Source: Actinotalea lenta
Lineage (GTDB): Bacteria; Actinomycetota; Actinomycetes; Actinomycetales; Cellulomonadaceae
Length of the DNA stretch: 64,000 bases
Assembly (NCBI RefSeq): GCF_030586465.1
Contig: NZ_JAUQYP010000001.1
Coordinates: 2,817,946 to 2,881,945 of the forward strand
Direction of reading: 5' to 3'
The notes under the pieces were generated by a model. The model did not search any database and was not told where the DNA came from. It saw nothing but the letters and a program-made list of their open reading frames with translations. This document shows, one piece after another, positions 6,294 through 16,448 of the stretch (its first letter is position 1; every line of letters begins with the position of its first letter). Position numbers and translations under genes: made by a program.

Positions 6294-7892
6294 TCAGGAC
6301 CGCGACGCGACGCCAGCCCGCAGCAGACCGAACACGAGCGAGTCGACGAGTGCCTCCCAGGACGCCTCGACCACGTTCGGACCCACCCCGACGGTCATCC
6401 AGGTGGTCTCCGCGTGCGTGTCCATGGTCTCCACCAGGACCCGCGTCGTGGCGTCGGTGCCGTGGTCGGTGTCCAAGATCCGCACCTTGAAGTCGATCAG
6501 CTCGAACCGGTCGACCTCCGGGTAGGTGGGCGACACCGCCTTGCGGAGCGCATGGTCCAGCGCGTTGACCGGCCCGTTACCCTCGCCGGTGGCGATGACC
6601 CGCTCGCCGCCGACGTGCATCTTGACGGTCGCCTCGCTGCCGGCGACCGTCGGGTCGCCCGGCACCGTCTCGACGAACACCCGCCACGACTCCGTGGTCC
6701 AGAAGCTCGGCCGCGCTCCGTCGAGCTCCTCACGCAGCAGGAGCTCGAAGGACGCGTCGGCCGCGTCGTACGTGTAGCCCTGCGCCTCGGCGTCCTTGAC
6801 GCGCGTGGTCATCCGGGACAACAGCTCGCCGCGGCCGGTGAGGTCGTACCCCAGCTCCCGGCCCTTGAGCTCGATCGACGCGCGCCCCGCCATGTCCGAG
6901 ACCAGCATGCGCATGTCGTTGCCGACCGCCAGTGGGTCGGCGTGCTGGTACATGTCCGGGTCGACCTTGATCGCGCTCGCGTGCAGGCCGGCCTTGTGCG
7001 CGAACGCGCTCGCGCCCACGTACGGCTGGCGCGCGAACGGGGTGATGTTCGTCAGCTCGCTGATCGCGTGCGAGATGCGGGTCATCTCCTTGAGCCCACC
7101 GCCGGCGAGCAGCGAACGCCCGTGCTTGAGCTCCAGGTTGGCCACCACGGTGAGCAGATCGGCGTTCCCGGTGCGTTCGCCGTAGCCGTTCACCGTGCCC
7201 TGCACGTGCACCGCGCCCGCGCTGACCGCAGCCAGCGTGTTGGCGACGGCGCACCCGGAGTCGTTGTGCGCGTGCATGCCGAGCCTGCCGTCGGTGCGCT
7301 CCCGCACCGACGTGACGATCTCGTGCACCCAGTCCGGGATCATCCCGCCGTTGGTGTCGCACAGCACGACCGTCTCGGCACCTGCCTCGAACGCGGCCAC
7401 GGCGCAGGCCACCGCATAGTCGGGGTCGTAGCGGAAGCCGTCGAAGAAGTGCTCGGCGTCGAGCACCACGCGCCTGCCCTGGCCACGCAGGTACGAGACC
7501 GTGTCGGCGATCATCGCGAGGTTCTCCTCGCCGGTCGTGCGCAGGGCACGCTCGACGTGCCGGATGTCACTCTTGGCGACCAGCGTCACGACGGGCGCCT
7601 CGCTGTCCAGCAGAGCGCGCACCTGGGTGTCCTCGGCCGCCCTCACTCCGGCCTTGCGCGTGGAACCGAAGGCGACGAGCTCGGCGTTGACAAGGTCCAG
7701 CTCCTTGTCCGCGCGCTTGAAGAACTCGGTGTCCTTGGGGATCGCCCCGGGCCAGCCCCCCTCGATGAACCCCACGCCGAGCTCGTCGAGCAGGGGGGCG
7801 ATGATCAGCTTGTCGGCGACCGACAGGTTCATGCCCTCCTGCTGAGCCCCGTCGCGCAGGGTCGTGTCGTAGACGTCGAAGGTGTTGTCCAC
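6294..7892 (-). CDS. cimA: (R)-citramalate synthase
   Basis: Condenses pyruvate and acetyl-CoA to citramalate, the first step of the threonine-independent route to 2-oxobutyrate and isoleucine. Of 532 residues, the N-terminal 280 form the HMG-CoA-lyase-like barrel: DTTLRDGAQQEG at residue 9, AEHFFDGFRYDP, and the metal-binding HAHNDSGCAVAN. Residues about 400-520 match the LeuA allosteric/dimerisation domain (GGERVIATGEGNGPVNALDHAL), so isoleucine feedback inhibition is likely. The length and the GAQQEGM motif fit CimA rather than LeuA. Start GTG 7892 has GAGGAG 6 nt ahead. A 9-residue leader peptide and terminator 140 nt upstream indicate attenuation control. Confidence 0.93.
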   Translation of the reverse strand: MDNTFDVYDTTLRDGAQQEGMNLSVADKLIIAPLLDELGVGFIEGGWPGAIPKDTEFFKRADKELDLVNAELVAFGSTRKAGVRAAEDTQVRALLDSEAPVVTLVAKSDIRHVERALRTTGEENLAMIADTVSYLRGQGRRVVLDAEHFFDGFRYDPDYAVACAVAAFEAGAETVVLCDTNGGMIPDWVHEIVTSVRERTDGRLGMHAHNDSGCAVANTLAAVSAGAVHVQGTVNGYGERTGNADLLTVVANLELKHGRSLLAGGGLKEMTRISHAISELTNITPFARQPYVGASAFAHKAGLHASAIKVDPDMYQHADPLAVGNDMRMLVSDMAGRASIELKGRELGYDLTGRGELLSRMTTRVKDAEAQGYTYDAADASFELLLREELDGARPSFWTTESWRVFVETVPGDPTVAGSEATVKMHVGGERVIATGEGNGPVNALDHALRKAVSPTYPEVDRFELIDFKVRILDTDHGTDATTRVLVETMDTHAETTWMTVGVGPNVVEASWEALVDSLVFGLLRAGVASRS

Positions 7893-8032
7893 CGGGTCTC
7901 CTCGAGATGTCCGTCGGCACCGGCACCGGCGGGGTCGTCAGTCAAGCGTCGTCCACGGTACGCGGGTGCCGGCGGCGGGTGGTGCCGGGTCCTGGACGAC
8001 GGGGCCGGGGCGAGGGGTGGTGCCTCGGCCAA

Positions 8033-8062
8033 CAAAAAGACCCCCCGAGGTCACGGGAGGTC
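8033..8062 (-). terminator. Attenuator terminator in the cimA leader
   Basis: Read on the minus strand, GACCTCC at 8062-8056 pairs with GGGGGTC at 8045-8039 (7 pairs, one of them U-G) across an 11-10 nt loop and is followed immediately by TTTTTG. This is a good intrinsic terminator located between the leader peptide and the cimA start 140 nt further on. It is placed to stop transcription unless the ribosome stalls in the leader. Confidence 0.8.
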
Positions 8063-8063
8063 T

Positions 8064-8089
8064 GCGCGTCCGGCTGGTGCCGAACGCGC
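8064..8089 (-). promoter_or_regulatory. Leader hairpin overlapping the cimA leader-peptide stop codon
   Basis: gcgcgt (8064-8069) and acgcgc (8084-8089) form a perfect outer stem; ccg/cgg extends it inside after a single mismatch. The hairpin begins inside the TAG of the leader peptide, so a ribosome that reaches the stop covers its 5' arm, while one stalled on the Ile codons would not. The ilvB leader has the same layout. The alternative antiterminator pairing was not resolved by eye. Confidence 0.6.
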
Positions 8090-8118
8090 TACTCGATAAT
8101 GAGGTGGAACCGAGTCAC
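8089..8118 (-). CDS. cimA leader peptide MTRFHLIIE
   Basis: A ten-codon frame, GTG ACT CGG TTC CAC CTC ATT ATC GAG TAG, encodes M-T-R-F-H-L-I-I-E. Ile-Ile preceded by Leu near the end is what is expected of a regulatory leader for an isoleucine-pathway gene; ATT is also a rare codon in this GC-rich genome. A terminator follows within 30 nt. There is no Shine-Dalgarno, and a -10-like CATCAT lies exactly 6 nt before the GTG, so the leader is probably translated from a leaderless mRNA. The residues are assigned from direct translation; the regulatory role is inference from architecture. Confidence 0.75.
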   Translation of the reverse strand: MTRFHLIIE

Positions 8119-8124
8119 GCGGGC

Positions 8125-8152
8125 ATGATGCCACAGCAGCGTCGCACGGCAA
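8125..8152 (-). promoter_or_regulatory. Predicted cimA promoter
   Basis: On the minus strand TTGCCG (8152-8147) is separated by 16 nt from CATCAT (8130-8125), which is 6 nt upstream of the leader-peptide GTG. Both hexamers are imperfect, so the call rests mainly on spacing and position relative to the leader. Between here and 8280 I see no further structure or gene. Confidence 0.5.
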
Positions 8153-8280
8153 AGAGGGCGTCCACGACGACGAGGTCGGTCGTCGGGCAGCGTCGGTACG
8201 TCGCGACCTGACCGTGCGCGGCGCTGAGCGGCCGCGACCACGGTGGCATGTGGGCCGCGAGTGAGCCGGAGACGACGTGA

Positions 8281-8787
8281 TCAGCGTCCCTGCGGGTCGA
8301 GCCGTGTGCGCCTCGCCAACGACCGGGGCACGGCCCACCAGGTCACACCGATCACCACCAGCAGTCCCGCGGCCACCCACCGTCCCGCCTCGCGCGACAC
8401 CACGAGATCCATGATGAGCATGAGCGCTCCCACGAGCACGAGCGCCAGGCAGACGAGCCCGCCCCGCGCGAACCGTGCGGCGACCCGGACCAGCTCCGGC
8501 TTGCGGTGCCGGGCGAACAGGGCCCGGTGCATGCTCACCGGCGCGACGATCAGCACGGTGGACAGCGCCGCGAGGATCACCAGCACGAGGTACGACGTGC
8601 GCTGGTACGTGTCGAGGTCGCTGAACCGGCTCTGGAACGGGATCGTGAGCAGGAACCCGACCAGGATCTGCGCACCGGTCTGCAGCACCCGCAGCTCGGC
8701 GAGCAGCTCGGTCCAGTTCCGGTCGGCCCGCTCGGCGGGGGTCTCGTGCCGGTCCGGCTGCTCGGGTGCCGACTCAGGCGCCACCAC
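8281..8787 (-). CDS. DUF6328-type four-helix membrane protein
   Basis: 168 residues. After a polar N-terminus the motif NWTELLAELRVLQTGAQILV introduces the first of four hydrophobic segments (ILVGFLLTIPF; LVLVILAALSTVLIVAP; LVCLALVLVGALMLIMDLV; WVAAGLLVVIGVTWWAV). This matches my memory of the DUF6328 family, small actinobacterial membrane proteins without known function. Its GTG start directly abuts the TGA stop of the upstream ilvE copy (no intervening base), so it is probably translated by termination-reinitiation in the same operon. Confidence 0.82.
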   Translation of the reverse strand: MVAPESAPEQPDRHETPAERADRNWTELLAELRVLQTGAQILVGFLLTIPFQSRFSDLDTYQRTSYLVLVILAALSTVLIVAPVSMHRALFARHRKPELVRVAARFARGGLVCLALVLVGALMLIMDLVVSREAGRWVAAGLLVVIGVTWWAVPRSLARRTRLDPQGR

Positions 8788-9894
8788 TCAGGCCAGCCGG
8801 TGCATCCAGCCGTGCGGGTCCGCCGCACGCCCGTACTGGATCGCGGTGAGCTGGTGGCGCACCGCCGTCGTGACCGTGCCGGTCTTTCCGCCGTTGACCT
8901 GGAGGTCGAAGCCCTCGCCCGCGAGCCGACCGATCGGGGTGACCACGGCCGCGGTGCCGCACGCGAACACCTCTGTCACCTCGCCCGTCCGCAGGCCCTC
9001 GAGCACCTCACCCAGCGGCAGGTCGCGCTCGACGACCTCGTGACCGCCCTCGCGCAGCAGCGTGAGGACCGAGTCCCGCGTGACGCCCTCCAGGATCGTG
9101 CCGCTCAGGGCCGGGGTGACGACGCTGCCGTCCCGGCGGACGACCATGACGTTCATGCCGCCCAGCTCCTCCAGGAGCGTGCCCGTGGCGGCGTCCAGGA
9201 AGCACACCTGCTCGCAGCCCCGCTGGTACGCCTCCTGCTGCGGCAGCAGGGACGCCGCATAGTTGCCGCCGCACTTGGCCGCCCCCGTGCCGCCCGGTCC
9301 GGCGCGGTGGTAGTCCTCGGCGACCCAGATGGACACCGGCTGCACGCCACCGGAGAAGTACGGGCCGACGGGAGAGGCGATGAGCAGGTACTCCACGGTG
9401 CGCGCCGGCCGGACGCCGAGGAAGGCCTCGGAGGCGAACATGAACGGACGCAGGTAGAGGCTGGTCTCCTCCGCTCCCGGCACCCACGCGGCATCGACGT
9501 CCACCAGAGCCTCGATCGAGCCCAGGAAGTCCTCGACGGACAGCTCCGGGAGCGCCAGGCGCCGCGCCGAGGCCGCGAACCGCGCCGCGTTGGCCCACGG
9601 CCGAAACGTCCACACCGAACCGTCGGCGTGCCGGTATGCCTTGAGCCCTTCGAAGATCTCCTGGCCGTAGTGCAGGACGGCCGACGCGGGGTCGAGCTGG
9701 AGCGGGCCGTACGGCTCGAGGCGTCGCGCACCCCAACCGTCGGTGACGGTCCAGGTCATCCTGGCCATGTGGTCCGTGAAGACGACACCGAAGGTCGGCT
9801 CGGCGACCAGCGCCGCGCGTTCGGCCTCGGTGCGCGGCGACGGCGTGAGCCGACGCTCGAACGCGTCGGCGGTGGTGGCACCCTGCGTGCTCAT
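8788..9894 (-). CDS. ilvE: Branched-chain amino acid aminotransferase, copy 1
   Basis: Class IV PLP aminotransferase interconverting Leu, Ile and Val with their 2-oxo acids using glutamate. Of 368 residues, key blocks are HYGQEIFEGLKAYRH near residue 75, YLRPFMFASE, and GGTGAAKCGGNYAASLLPQQ with the PLP lysine; ELGGMNVMVV and CGTAAVVTPIGRL complete the site. Length and motifs match mycobacterial IlvE. The RBS AAGGG is 6-7 nt before ATG 9894. A second, strongly similar copy lies immediately upstream (about 70 nt away), so this pair is a tandem duplication. This copy keeps the canonical K-x-GGNY motif and is the better candidate for the housekeeping enzyme. Confidence 0.93.
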   Translation of the reverse strand: MSTQGATTADAFERRLTPSPRTEAERAALVAEPTFGVVFTDHMARMTWTVTDGWGARRLEPYGPLQLDPASAVLHYGQEIFEGLKAYRHADGSVWTFRPWANAARFAASARRLALPELSVEDFLGSIEALVDVDAAWVPGAEETSLYLRPFMFASEAFLGVRPARTVEYLLIASPVGPYFSGGVQPVSIWVAEDYHRAGPGGTGAAKCGGNYAASLLPQQEAYQRGCEQVCFLDAATGTLLEELGGMNVMVVRRDGSVVTPALSGTILEGVTRDSVLTLLREGGHEVVERDLPLGEVLEGLRTGEVTEVFACGTAAVVTPIGRLAGEGFDLQVNGGKTGTVTTAVRHQLTAIQYGRAADPHGWMHRLA

Positions 9895-9963: not shown

Positions 9964-11076
9964 TCACACCCACCGGACCATCCAGCCGCGCTCGTCGGGC
10001 GCGCGGCCGTGCTGGATGTCCATGAGCTGCGCGCGCACCCGGGCCGTCACCGGCCCGACGCCGCCGTCCGCGACCCGGGCGTCGAACCCGTGGCCGACGA
10101 GACGGCCGATGGGACTGACCCCCGCGCCGGTCCCGCACGCGAACAGCTCGGTCACCTCCCCCGACGCCAGCCCGGCCAGGACCTCCTCGAGCGGCAGCGC
10201 GCGTTCGACCACCTCGTGACCGTCCGCGGCGAGCAGCCTCAGCACCGCGTCGCGCGTGATGCCCGGGAGGATGGCCCCGTCCAGGGCGGGCGTCAGCACC
10301 GTGCCGTCGGCACGCACCGCCACCAGGTTCATCCCGCCGAGCTCCTCGAGGTTGCGGCCGCTCACGGCGTCCAGGAAGCACACCTGCTCGCAGCCGTGCC
10401 GGTACGCCTCGGCCTGCGAGGCGAGTGAGGCACCGTAGTTCCCCATCGTCTTGACCGCGCCAGTGCCGCCCGGGCTCGCGCGGTGCAGGTCCTGGGCCAC
10501 CCAGATCGACACGGGCGCCGCGCCACCCGCGAAGTACGCGCCGGCCGGCGACGCGATCACCACGTACTCCACCCGCCGCGCGGCTCTGACCAGCAGGTTC
10601 GGCTCGGACGCGAACATCACGGGACGCAGGTACAGGCTCGCGTCGTCGGCCGGCGGCACCCACGCCTGGTCGACGGTCACCAGGGCTCGGACGGAGGCGA
10701 GGAAGTCCTCGACCGGGAGCTCGGGCAGCGCCATCCGGCGGGCCGAGGCCGCGAAGCGCGCCGCGTTGGCCTCCGGGCGGAAACCCCACACCGACCCGTC
10801 CGGGTGCCGGTACGCCTTGAGTCCCTCGAAGATCTCCTGGCCGTAGTGCAGCACGAGCGCCGCGGGCTCGAGCGCGAGCGGCGCGTACGGTTCGACCCGC
10901 CGGTCGAGCCAGCCATCCTCGGACGTCCAGGTCATGCGCGCCATGTGGTCGGTGACCACGGCACCGAACCGCGGTGCCTCCAGTGCCGCGGCACGAGCGT
11001 CCGGCGGCACGGGATGCGGGTTGGGGTGCAGCGCGAACTCCGGCACGGGGGGCAGGGCCCCGGAGCTGCTCGTCAT
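9964..11076 (-). CDS. Branched-chain amino acid aminotransferase, copy 2 (paralogue)
   Basis: 370 residues, aligning end to end with the downstream ilvE copy at roughly two-thirds identity by eye. The PLP lysine is retained, but the motif reads GGTGAVKTMGNYGASL, so the usual glycine after K-x is replaced by methionine. Other blocks (HYGQEIFEGLKAYRH, ELGGMNLVAV, CGTGAGVSPIGRL) are intact, so it should be active, perhaps with altered substrate preference. ATG 11076 is chosen because GGGAGG precedes it by 5 nt; the frame remains open further upstream into leuB. It follows leuB by 43 nt on the same strand, forming leuB-ilvE2-ilvE1-DUF6328. Confidence 0.9.
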   Translation of the reverse strand: MTSSSGALPPVPEFALHPNPHPVPPDARAAALEAPRFGAVVTDHMARMTWTSEDGWLDRRVEPYAPLALEPAALVLHYGQEIFEGLKAYRHPDGSVWGFRPEANAARFAASARRMALPELPVEDFLASVRALVTVDQAWVPPADDASLYLRPVMFASEPNLLVRAARRVEYVVIASPAGAYFAGGAAPVSIWVAQDLHRASPGGTGAVKTMGNYGASLASQAEAYRHGCEQVCFLDAVSGRNLEELGGMNLVAVRADGTVLTPALDGAILPGITRDAVLRLLAADGHEVVERALPLEEVLAGLASGEVTELFACGTGAGVSPIGRLVGHGFDARVADGGVGPVTARVRAQLMDIQHGRAPDERGWMVRWV

Positions 11077-11119
11077 CTCGCCTCCCTCAGCACCCGTGCG
11101 GGCGCGCCGTGCGACCCGG

Positions 11120-12151
11120 CTAGCCGCGGATCCGTTCGGCGATCTCCGCGCCGACCTGCGCCGTCGAGCGCGCCCGATCGCCGCGCGCGGCGAGGTCGGC
11201 CGCGACCGCCTGCTCCACGCGGGCGGCGGCCTCGGGCCGGCCGAGGTGCTCGAGCATGAGGGCGACCGACAGGATCGTCGCCGTGGGGTCGGCCTTGCCC
11301 TGACCGGCGATGTCCGGTGCCGAGCCGTGCACCGGCTCGAACATCGACGGGGCGGTGCGGTCCGGGTTGATGTTGCCCGAGGCCGCCAGGCCGATCCCGC
11401 CGACCACCGCACCGGCCAGGTCCGTGAGGATGTCGCCGAACAGGTTGTCGGTGACGATCACGTCGAACCGCGAGGGCTTGGTGACCATGAAGATGGTCGC
11501 CGCGTCGACGTGCAGGTAGTCGGTCGTGACGTCGGGGAACTCGGCGTTGACGGCCTCGACCGTGCGCCGCCACAGGTCGCCGGCGTGCACCAGCACGTTG
11601 TGCTTGTGCACGAGCGTCAGGTGCCGGCGTGGACGTGCCGCGGCGCGGGCGAAGGCGTCGCGCACCACGCGCTCGACCCCGAAGGCGGTGTTGACGCTGA
11701 CCTCGTTGGCGACCTCGTGCGCAGTGCCGCGCCGGATCGAGCCGCCGTTGCCGACGTACGGACCTTCGGTGCCCTCGCGGACGACGACGAAGTCGACGTC
11801 GCCCGGCTCCGCGAGCGGGGAGCGCACCCCGGGGTACAGCCGGCCGGGCCGCAGGTTGACGTAGTGGTCCAGCTCGAATCGCAGGCGCAGCAGCAGCCCG
11901 CGCTCCAGCACACCGGACGGAACGCTCGGGTCACCGATGGCCCCGAGCAGGATCGCGTCGTGCTCACGGATGGTGGCCAGGTCCGCGTCGGTCAGGGTGT
12001 CACCGGTGGCGTGCCAGCGGCGCGCCCCCAGGTCCAGCTGGGTGGTCTCGACCACGGTGCCGCTACCCGCGAGAGCGGCCTCCAAGGCCGCCAGCCCCTG
12101 ATCGACGACCTCCGTACCGATCCCGTCGCCGGGGATGACCGCGAGCCGCAT
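11120..12151 (-). CDS. leuB: 3-isopropylmalate dehydrogenase
   Basis: Oxidatively decarboxylates 3-isopropylmalate in leucine biosynthesis with NAD+. The protein opens [16 protein letters not shown], has the substrate-binding arginines in [19 protein letters not shown], the catalytic [13 protein letters not shown] and the NAD-binding [12 protein letters not shown] followed by GKADPTATI. At 343 residues it is the usual length. The second ATG (12151) is used because GGAGG is about 9 nt ahead of it, whereas the first ATG almost touches that site. In M. tuberculosis serA lies between ilvC and leuB; here an ASCH-domain gene takes that place. Confidence 0.95.
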
Positions 12152-16353: not shown

Positions 16354-16391
16354 GAAAAAACCCCTCGGCCCTGATGGGCACGGCGAGGGGT
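16354..16391 (-). terminator. Attenuator terminator in the ilvB leader
   Basis: On the minus strand ACCCCTCG pairs with CGAGGGGT, with an inner GCCC-ATCA-GGGC extension after a small bulge, followed by six T residues (16360-16355). It ends about 50 nt upstream of ilvB. This is a strong intrinsic terminator inside the leader of a biosynthetic operon. Confidence 0.88.
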
Positions 16392-16392
16392 C

Positions 16393-16422
16393 GGCGTAGG
16401 TGGGCTGGTCCCGGCCTACGCC
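16393..16422 (-). promoter_or_regulatory. Leader hairpin overlapping the ilvB leader-peptide stop codon
   Basis: ggcgtagg (16393-16400) and cctacgcc (16415-16422) form a perfect 8-bp stem with a 14-nt loop. The upper arm spans the leader-peptide TAG, the same arrangement as in the cimA leader, so movement of the ribosome through the last leader codons should decide whether it forms. An antiterminator partner was not identified by eye. Confidence 0.65.
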
Positions 16423-16448
16423 TGGCTGAGTACGACGAGCGTCCGCAC
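16416..16448 (-). CDS. ilvB leader peptide MRTLVVLSQA
   Basis: GTG CGG ACG CTC GTC GTA CTC AGC CAG GCG TAG encodes a ten-residue peptide with Leu-Val-Val-Leu in the middle, the composition expected for an ilv attenuator. It starts 7 nt after a TAAGGT -10 element, so the GTG is at or next to the transcription start and the peptide is probably read from a leaderless mRNA. Two hairpins, the second a T-tailed terminator, follow. Actinobacterial ilvB leaders of this type are known; the mechanism here is inferred. Confidence 0.8.
   Translation of the reverse strand: MRTLVVLSQA

Follow-up and report, generated by a model that had tools for sequence, protein, structure and literature searches.

The cimA locus and its leader region

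The window, by which is meant the whole stretch of 64,000 nucleotides of Actinotalea lenta DNA analysed here, encodes citramalate synthase (CimA), the enzyme with which the threonine-independent route to isoleucine begins. Threonine deaminase is also encoded in the window's genome (TIGR01127, 412 bits vs a cut-off of 379). Two tandem branched-chain aminotransferase genes and a gene for a DUF6328 protein precede cimA on the same strand, and the region in front of cimA contains a short open reading frame, a hairpin referred to as H2 and an intrinsic terminator hairpin referred to as T (Table 1). An earlier note on this DNA gave the leader peptide as MTRFHLIIE; the nine-codon frame with Leu-Ile-Ile near its end stands, but its start codon is GTG and the peptide is therefore VTRFHLIIE. 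The hairpin that the same note described as overlapping the stop codon is likewise present, but the overlap is limited to the G of UAG, which forms the first base of H2. T adjoins H2 with zero unpaired bases in between at the window locus, and its U run is followed by GTTG down to position 8030 of the minus strand. Position 8034 lies about 141 nt from the GTG of cimA (7892), in agreement with the T-tailed terminator on the cimA strand that had been placed about 140 nt before the gene. The fold of positions 8020-8160 has an energy of -68.9 kcal/mol against a shuffle mean of -52.35 (z -4.0), and none of 200 shuffles was as low. No Rfam family matches the window at its gathering score, and at a relaxed threshold the only match was Phe_leader (18.6 bits, E 1.1).

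Table 1. Features of the cimA and ilvB leader regions and neighbouring genes in the window
Feature	Position	Strand	Basis
cimA, citramalate synthase, presumed controlled gene	6294-7892	minus	TIGR00977, 611.5 bits vs cut-off 450
Intrinsic terminator hairpin T, 10 bp, AGACCTCCCG-tgacct-CGGGGGGTCT + U run	8063-8034	minus	folding + covariation
Hairpin H2, 11 bp, GCGCGTTCGGC-ACCA-GCCGGACGCGC	8089-8064	minus	folding + covariation
Leader frame GTG ACT CGG TTC CAC CTC ATT ATC GAG TAG, VTRFHLIIE	8118-8089	minus	sequence reading
Putative sensor codons CTC ATT ATC, leader codons -4 to -2	within 8089..8118	minus	sequence reading
Extended -10-like element TGTGG-CATCAT, 6 nt before leader start	8135-8125	minus	sequence reading
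DUF6328 protein, between ilvE and cimA leader	8281-8787	minus	PF19853, E 2e-56
Two tandem branched-chain aminotransferase genes	8788-9894, 9964-11412	minus	both above the ilvE_II and PRK13357 cut-offs
ilvB attenuator (candidate), same layout as that of cimA	16355..16448	minus	sequence reading
ilvB leader VRTLVVLSQA	16448-16416	minus	sequence reading
ilvB H2 GCGTAGG..CCTACGC	16421-16394	minus	sequence reading
ilvB terminator ACCCCTCG..CGAGGGG + T6	16391-16355	minus	sequence reading

The stretch between T and cimA (7893-8033 of the minus strand in the window) has a feature of its own. One to three copies of CACCACCC occur there in 25 of 29 loci of the family (L003-L032), amounting to 37 copies vs 1.5 expected under a Markov model, several of them within hairpin loops, and outside the family the motif was seen in 18 of 87 loci. 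The copies are possibly a protein-binding or Rho site. A genome-wide repeat was ruled out as their origin (12 genome matches vs 13 for a reversed control), and a UUG frame after the terminator was rejected as it is not in the frame of cimA.

Conservation and association with cimA

At an E value of 1e-80, cimA is found in 18 of 19 genomes of the same genus and 214 of 221 of the same family. Upstream regions were read for the 30 best-scoring loci of these 214 cimA genomes (18 from the same genus, including that of the window, and 12 from other genera), and the leader frame, a UAG-CGCG sequence, H2 and T are present in all 30. In the RNAalifold consensus of the 30 loci, H2 and T comprise 20 pairs, of which five show double changes, and the same loci were used to build a covariance model, R1. 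Under the stricter filters used for searches over more than 40 genomes, which lose weak matches, R1 matched 158 of 396 genomes of the order (55 of 109 genera), 219 of 394 in the class and 43 of 296 in the phylum. From the order, 90 matches were fetched, 30 as returned by the search and 60 chosen across families; three repeat loci of the family, which leaves 117 distinct loci. All 90 have cimA downstream. In the alignment of these copies, which is fitted to the model, 97.5% of cells pair, compared with 87.9 in shuffles and 38.8-58.5 in slid structures, and double-change cells number 164 vs 32.8 in shuffles. The double changes fall in 14 of the 20 pairs, comprising 6 of 10 modelled pairs of H2 and 8 of 10 of T; the foot of H2, GCGCG/CGCGC, is near-invariant in sequence.

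The 60 loci chosen from the class lie before cimA in 53 cases, one of which (L161) has no more than 32 cimA residues in view, before ilvB in six and before neither in one; for one class locus (L198) cimA is downstream once the locus is read on the other strand. Among 20 loci chosen outside the class, ilvB is downstream in 19 and leuA in one, and another 20 loci, most of them additional (second or third) copies, precede ilvB (13), leuS (3), cimA (2) or a small protein whose ACT-domain match is below threshold (2). A pattern made of the H2 foot and T only, and therefore blind to the leader, was run on a collection of 84,980 species genomes and returned at least 119 stretches. In 114 of the 119 listed cimA is just downstream, the other five end before any gene becomes visible, and no gene other than cimA was found downstream among these 119, which indicates that the exact terminator sequence goes with cimA in the class. 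The genera among the matches listed include Cellulomonas, Cellulosimicrobium, Occultella, Streptomyces, Kitasatospora, Micromonospora, Actinoplanes, Pseudonocardia, Lentzea, Blastococcus, Phycicoccus, Knoellia and Nocardioides. Judged from its recurrence in the Actinomycetes, the element before cimA is real and beyond chance.

Of 238 genomes of the order that R1 did not match, 20 were examined: 13 are without cimA (E 1e-100) and seven carry it, and a search of these seven with R1 without filters found nothing before cimA. By eye, cimA lies close behind or overlaps ilvE and has no leader in L135-L139, as if the attenuator had been traded for an operon fusion with ilvE; no leader is visible before the cimA of L140, and L141 is truncated where its contig stops.

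The leader peptide and its codons

Leaders were parsed by choosing the open frame with the most Ile, Leu and Val codons, few loci offering another open frame, and 114 of the 117 loci were kept. L116, in which the script found no H2, and L117 and L123 (mis-framed) were dropped; by eye, the leaders of L116 and L123 read MALQQLIIC and MALWHVIIID. All 114 parsed leaders have Ile within their last five codons and 96 have Ile-Ile. Counted from the end of the frame, codon -2 is Ile in 109 leaders and Leu in five, and codon -3 is Ile in 98. Codon -4 encodes Leu in 73 leaders, Val in 16, Ile in 15 and another residue in nine (n=113), so that 104 of 113 belong to the three branched-chain amino acids. 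By comparison, residue -1 is filled by twelve different residues across the 114 leaders and residue -5 varies widely. A lack of conserved Ile codons or terminator among relatives, which the earlier note had named as refuting its reading, was looked for and not seen, with Ile in every parsed leader, compensatory changes in H2 and T, and cimA behind all 90 order-level copies and behind 114 of the 119 pattern matches, five of which are cut off.

The rarity of the ATT codon had been taken to strengthen the reading of the leader as a sensor, and this holds: ATT makes up 113 of 234 Ile codons in the leaders vs 66 of 2073 in 117 pieces of cimA, counts which come from related genomes and hence are not independent. 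It amounts to 158 of 249 leader Ile codons in the named set of the leader-blind search, and to none of 70 Ile codons in the window's cimA, ilvE, leuB and most of ilvB. Selection on decoding is suggested, because many families share the bias and because the changes at codon -4 stay within Ile, Leu and Val. The control specific to isoleucine that the earlier note envisaged is too strong a claim in view of codon -4, where Leu and Val are frequent; their supply may count too. The best reading of the sequences is a sensor which is Ile-dominated rather than Ile-specific, and at codon -4 the constraint, as far as the aligned leaders tell, is one on codon class (Leu/Val/Ile). Two loci of one genus (L117, L118) have kept H2 and T with one Ile codon only (..RIS, ..PIS), and are possibly decaying sensors.

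An extended -10-like element lies 6 nt before the leader start in the window, which suggests that the leader mRNA is probably leaderless. Of 116 loci, 79 have a [CT]ANNNT hexamer behind GTG-like bases 6-9 nt upstream of the start codon, 72 of them at 6-7 nt; the remaining 37 failed this test, some with a likely earlier start by eye. The first base of the hexamer is mostly C, unlike the T of TAnnnT. In Streptomyces lividans the ilvL and leuL leaders are reported to be leaderless in the accessible text of PMC8079986.

Geometry of the element and the modelled ribosome

In an open search the spacing between H2 and T is 0-2 nt in 110 of 117 loci, and the other seven gave long-range or odd stems; the order-level distances that follow come from a parse confined to H2 candidates 0-3 nt from T. 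At the order level the last branched-chain codon lies 5 nt from H2 in 87 of 116 loci and 2-7 nt in 114, the two others being mis-parsed. The stop codon is UAG in 107, UGA in eight and UAA in one (n=116) and begins 2 nt before H2 in 92 of 116. Some frames extend into H2, namely those of one family within the order (L094-L100, L133) and 47 of the 117 leaders of the named set. In that set the distance, such overlapping frames included, is 5-11 nt (5 nt in 55 of 117 and 8 nt in 52 of 117); as the parse, which succeeded for 117 of 119, required an Ile codon and favoured distances near 5, only its success rate and the ATT share are informative. H2 itself is 22-82 nt long, with a loop that is also variable. 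An extension of H2 into T through GAG:CUC was considered, but leaders that end in IIV, IIA or IIG do not, by eye, allow it.

The position of the ribosome was modelled in 107 loci with a footprint reaching 11 nt beyond the first base of the A site. The mean share of H2 pairs kept is 99% when the A site lies two codons upstream of the last sensor codon, 86% when it lies one codon upstream, 59% when it lies on that codon, and 5% for a ribosome at the stop codon. In these models the ribosome position is shown to decide whether H2 folds, and in a separate run of stalled-ribosome folds on 30 loci eight H2 pairs are kept in the printed structures. A point against the mechanism proposed below is that part of H2 is already under the footprint when the modelled ribosome stands at the last Ile codon.

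Proposed mechanism and rival explanations

From the sequences and the modelled folds, cimA is likely subject to ribosome-mediated transcription attenuation governed by the supply of Ile-tRNA. The ribosome-dependent attenuator that the earlier note had placed before cimA is supported by the conserved Ile codons, H2, T and the linkage with cimA. It is proposed that RNA polymerase starts at or beside the GTG of the nine-codon leader, the start presumably being leaderless, and that a ribosome then translates the frame from GTG through LIIE to the UAG. With ample Ile-tRNA the ribosome would reach the stop codon and cover the 5' arm of H2; H2 would stay open, T would form behind the polymerase and transcription would terminate before cimA. 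With Ile-tRNA in short supply the ribosome would pause at CTC-ATT-ATC, leaving most or part of H2 free to fold, and the folded H2 abutting T would hinder the completion of T in the exit channel of the polymerase so that cimA is transcribed. No bases would be shared between the two hairpins. H2 may hinder T by adjacency because, according to this proposal, the two cannot sit without a spacer in and at the exit channel; an alternative step would be that H2 acts as a hairpin-stabilised pause holding the polymerase. The direction of the response, in which starvation switches the gene on, is suggested by the logic of the pathway and by analogy with ilvB1 of Mycobacterium tuberculosis, where a change of LVVI to AAAA is reported to have abolished induction (PMC13236596, accessible text).

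In a classical attenuator the stalled ribosome would instead let an antiterminator form from bases of the terminator, and for Corynebacterium ulcerans ilvB-II the available text of PMC10272879 does propose that the 3' arm of the terminator pairs with the P1 loop. In the genus of the window the leader sequence ACC-CUC could, by eye, pair with GGGGGU of T, but this pairing is lost outside the core genus, where leaders have CAGCTC or GAGCTC. No competing antiterminator sharing bases with T was found by thermodynamic folding, whether with constrained folds at 30 loci or with folds at 107 loci in which an arm was denied. With the ribosome at the stall or the stop, T stays formed in the 30 loci, the lowest value being 0.71; when no ribosome is placed, the value at L026 is 0.00. 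In the 107 loci the mean cost of withholding the 5' arm from T is 11.7 kcal/mol and the smallest is 3.0, 10 others having been dropped as mis-parsed or doubtful; the average energies of H2 and T in these loci are -20.9 and -16.5 kcal/mol. The G-rich 3' arm thus freed does pair elsewhere (over 0.5) in 85 of the 107, and a kinetic structure is possible. The cost of denying the arm and the persistence of T argue that no competing antiterminator explains readthrough, and the classical arrangement is regarded as unlikely.

A short peptide with a conserved hydrophobic tail beside the stop codon would also suit an arrest by the nascent peptide, its LII tail sensing the free amino acid and not the missing charged tRNA. 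Such an arrest is quite improbable given that residue -1 is free and residue -5 widely variable, and that ATT is enriched despite encoding the same residue as the other Ile codons, which points to decoding and not to the peptide. It is more improbable still that the hairpins merely terminate an upstream gene, with the short frame arising by chance. T does resemble an ordinary terminator, and for 19 of the 99 named loci the end of ilvE lies no more than 600 nt upstream on the same strand (it is farther in 40 and not in the locus in 40). Against this, a GC3 heuristic has the neighbouring upstream gene in the opposite direction in 45 of 99, in the same direction in 46 and unclear in eight; the element follows cimA, with its Ile codons, rare ATT and geometry conserved, and it is absent in L135-L139, where cimA by eye lies close behind or overlaps ilvE. 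An RNA that binds a ligand or a protein in the manner of a riboswitch, in place of a translated leader, might account for the near-invariant foot of H2, but the length and loop of H2 vary, a conserved unpaired core was not observed and no Rfam family reaches its threshold, which makes this reading just as remote. Attenuation by the translating ribosome is preferred.

Related leaders at other genes

The window contains a second candidate attenuator of the same layout before ilvB (Table 1). It is matched weakly by R1 in a search of 39 kb without filters (15.8 bits, E 0.015) and was unmatched at E 1 in the genome-wide search. Copies at ilvB, leuS and leuA share the layout of H2 and T and score with the cimA model. 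Their codons follow the gene: leaders of cimA (n=114) contain 233 Ile, 101 Leu and 41 Val codons, Ile making up 233 of 375, whereas those of ilvB (n=32, among them L179 and L369 mis-framed and L231 and L368 cut short) contain 22 Ile, 50 Leu and 54 Val, Ile making up 22 of 126. By eye, leuS leaders read MRRNLLLT, MSHQELLTGPR and VTHLELLTQPR and a leuA leader reads MSQNLLLT. The leuS genes of L383, L384 and L385 (TIGR00396 above the cut-off) lie behind an element of this layout whose leader has Leu-Leu(-Leu) codons and uses CTT.

Two further loci, L377 (the same place as L177) and L378, have leaders with Ile codons (MFALVIIM and MFTPRIII by eye), H2 and a terminator before a small protein, of 107 aa at L377, whose ACT_4 match falls short of the Pfam cut-off (E 0.0014 and 0.0058). 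This protein is perhaps a regulatory subunit.

It is possible, though on balance somewhat doubtful, that one modular layout serves across the Actinomycetota, made up of a short frame that is often leaderless, of H2 at the frame end or overlapping it, and of a terminator directly adjoining H2. Such a layout would be re-tuned gene by gene through few, often rare, codons (Ile and ATT at cimA, Val/Leu with GTA and CTT at ilvB, Leu at both leuS and leuA). It would need no antiterminator that shares bases with the terminator, as H2 would block the latter simply by lying next to it in the exit channel.

Meaning and comparison with known systems

The sequences suggest that the cell probably makes citramalate synthase mainly when isoleucine is scarce. 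As threonine deaminase is also encoded in the window's genome, the switch could set the share of isoleucine carbon that passes through the citramalate route, in Streptomyces, Micromonospora, Cellulomonas and many relatives. The class-wide copies, with their geometry kept and without an antiterminator of shared bases, make the adjacency idea directly testable.

In the trp, leu and ilv attenuators of Escherichia coli the position of the ribosome on the control codons decides termination, and the 2:3 antiterminator shares bases with the terminator. The former is common to the proposal for cimA, where ribosome position changes the leader fold in the model, whereas a base-sharing antiterminator was not found at cimA by thermodynamic folding.

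Closer relatives are the leaders of actinobacterial branched-chain genes, whose run of Ile, Leu or Val codons near the frame end and hairpin followed by a U-tailed terminator are also seen at cimA. Those of ilvB, leuS and leuA have a leader peptide, with a terminator for ilvB and leuS, but their codons vary by gene, and cimA is not named in the accessible text of the two papers which treat them (PMC1262725, PMC8079986). A description of the cimA leader was not found in the open-access literature searched, and none of the words cimA, citramalate, leuA, isoleucine or ilvB occurs in the accessible part of PMC6429828. How such leaders act is called unclear in the text available from PMC1262725, where changes to the leader codons of ilvB in Streptomyces coelicolor are recounted to have had no effect, a point against a mechanism based on codon sensing. 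This conflicts with the result for M. tuberculosis (PMC13236596), and the set of cimA leaders bears on the puzzle.

The ilvB1NC leader of M. tuberculosis resembles that of cimA in that a short frame with branched-chain codons (LVVI) and a terminator both lie ahead of a gene of branched-chain synthesis. It differs in gene and codons, and also in that the accessible text proposes mutually exclusive structures (PMC13236596), whereas no antiterminator of shared bases was found at cimA. The ilvB-II motif and ilvB-OMG of Corynebacterium likewise have a frame rich in Ile, Leu and Val codons, and ilvB-II has two hairpins, the second being a terminator; as far as the available text goes, the frame spans the first hairpin, the antiterminator put forward there draws on the terminator's 3' arm, and the gene is ilvB (PMC10272879). 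On the strength of its sequence features, the cimA leader is a new addition to the actinobacterial attenuators with branched-chain leader peptides.
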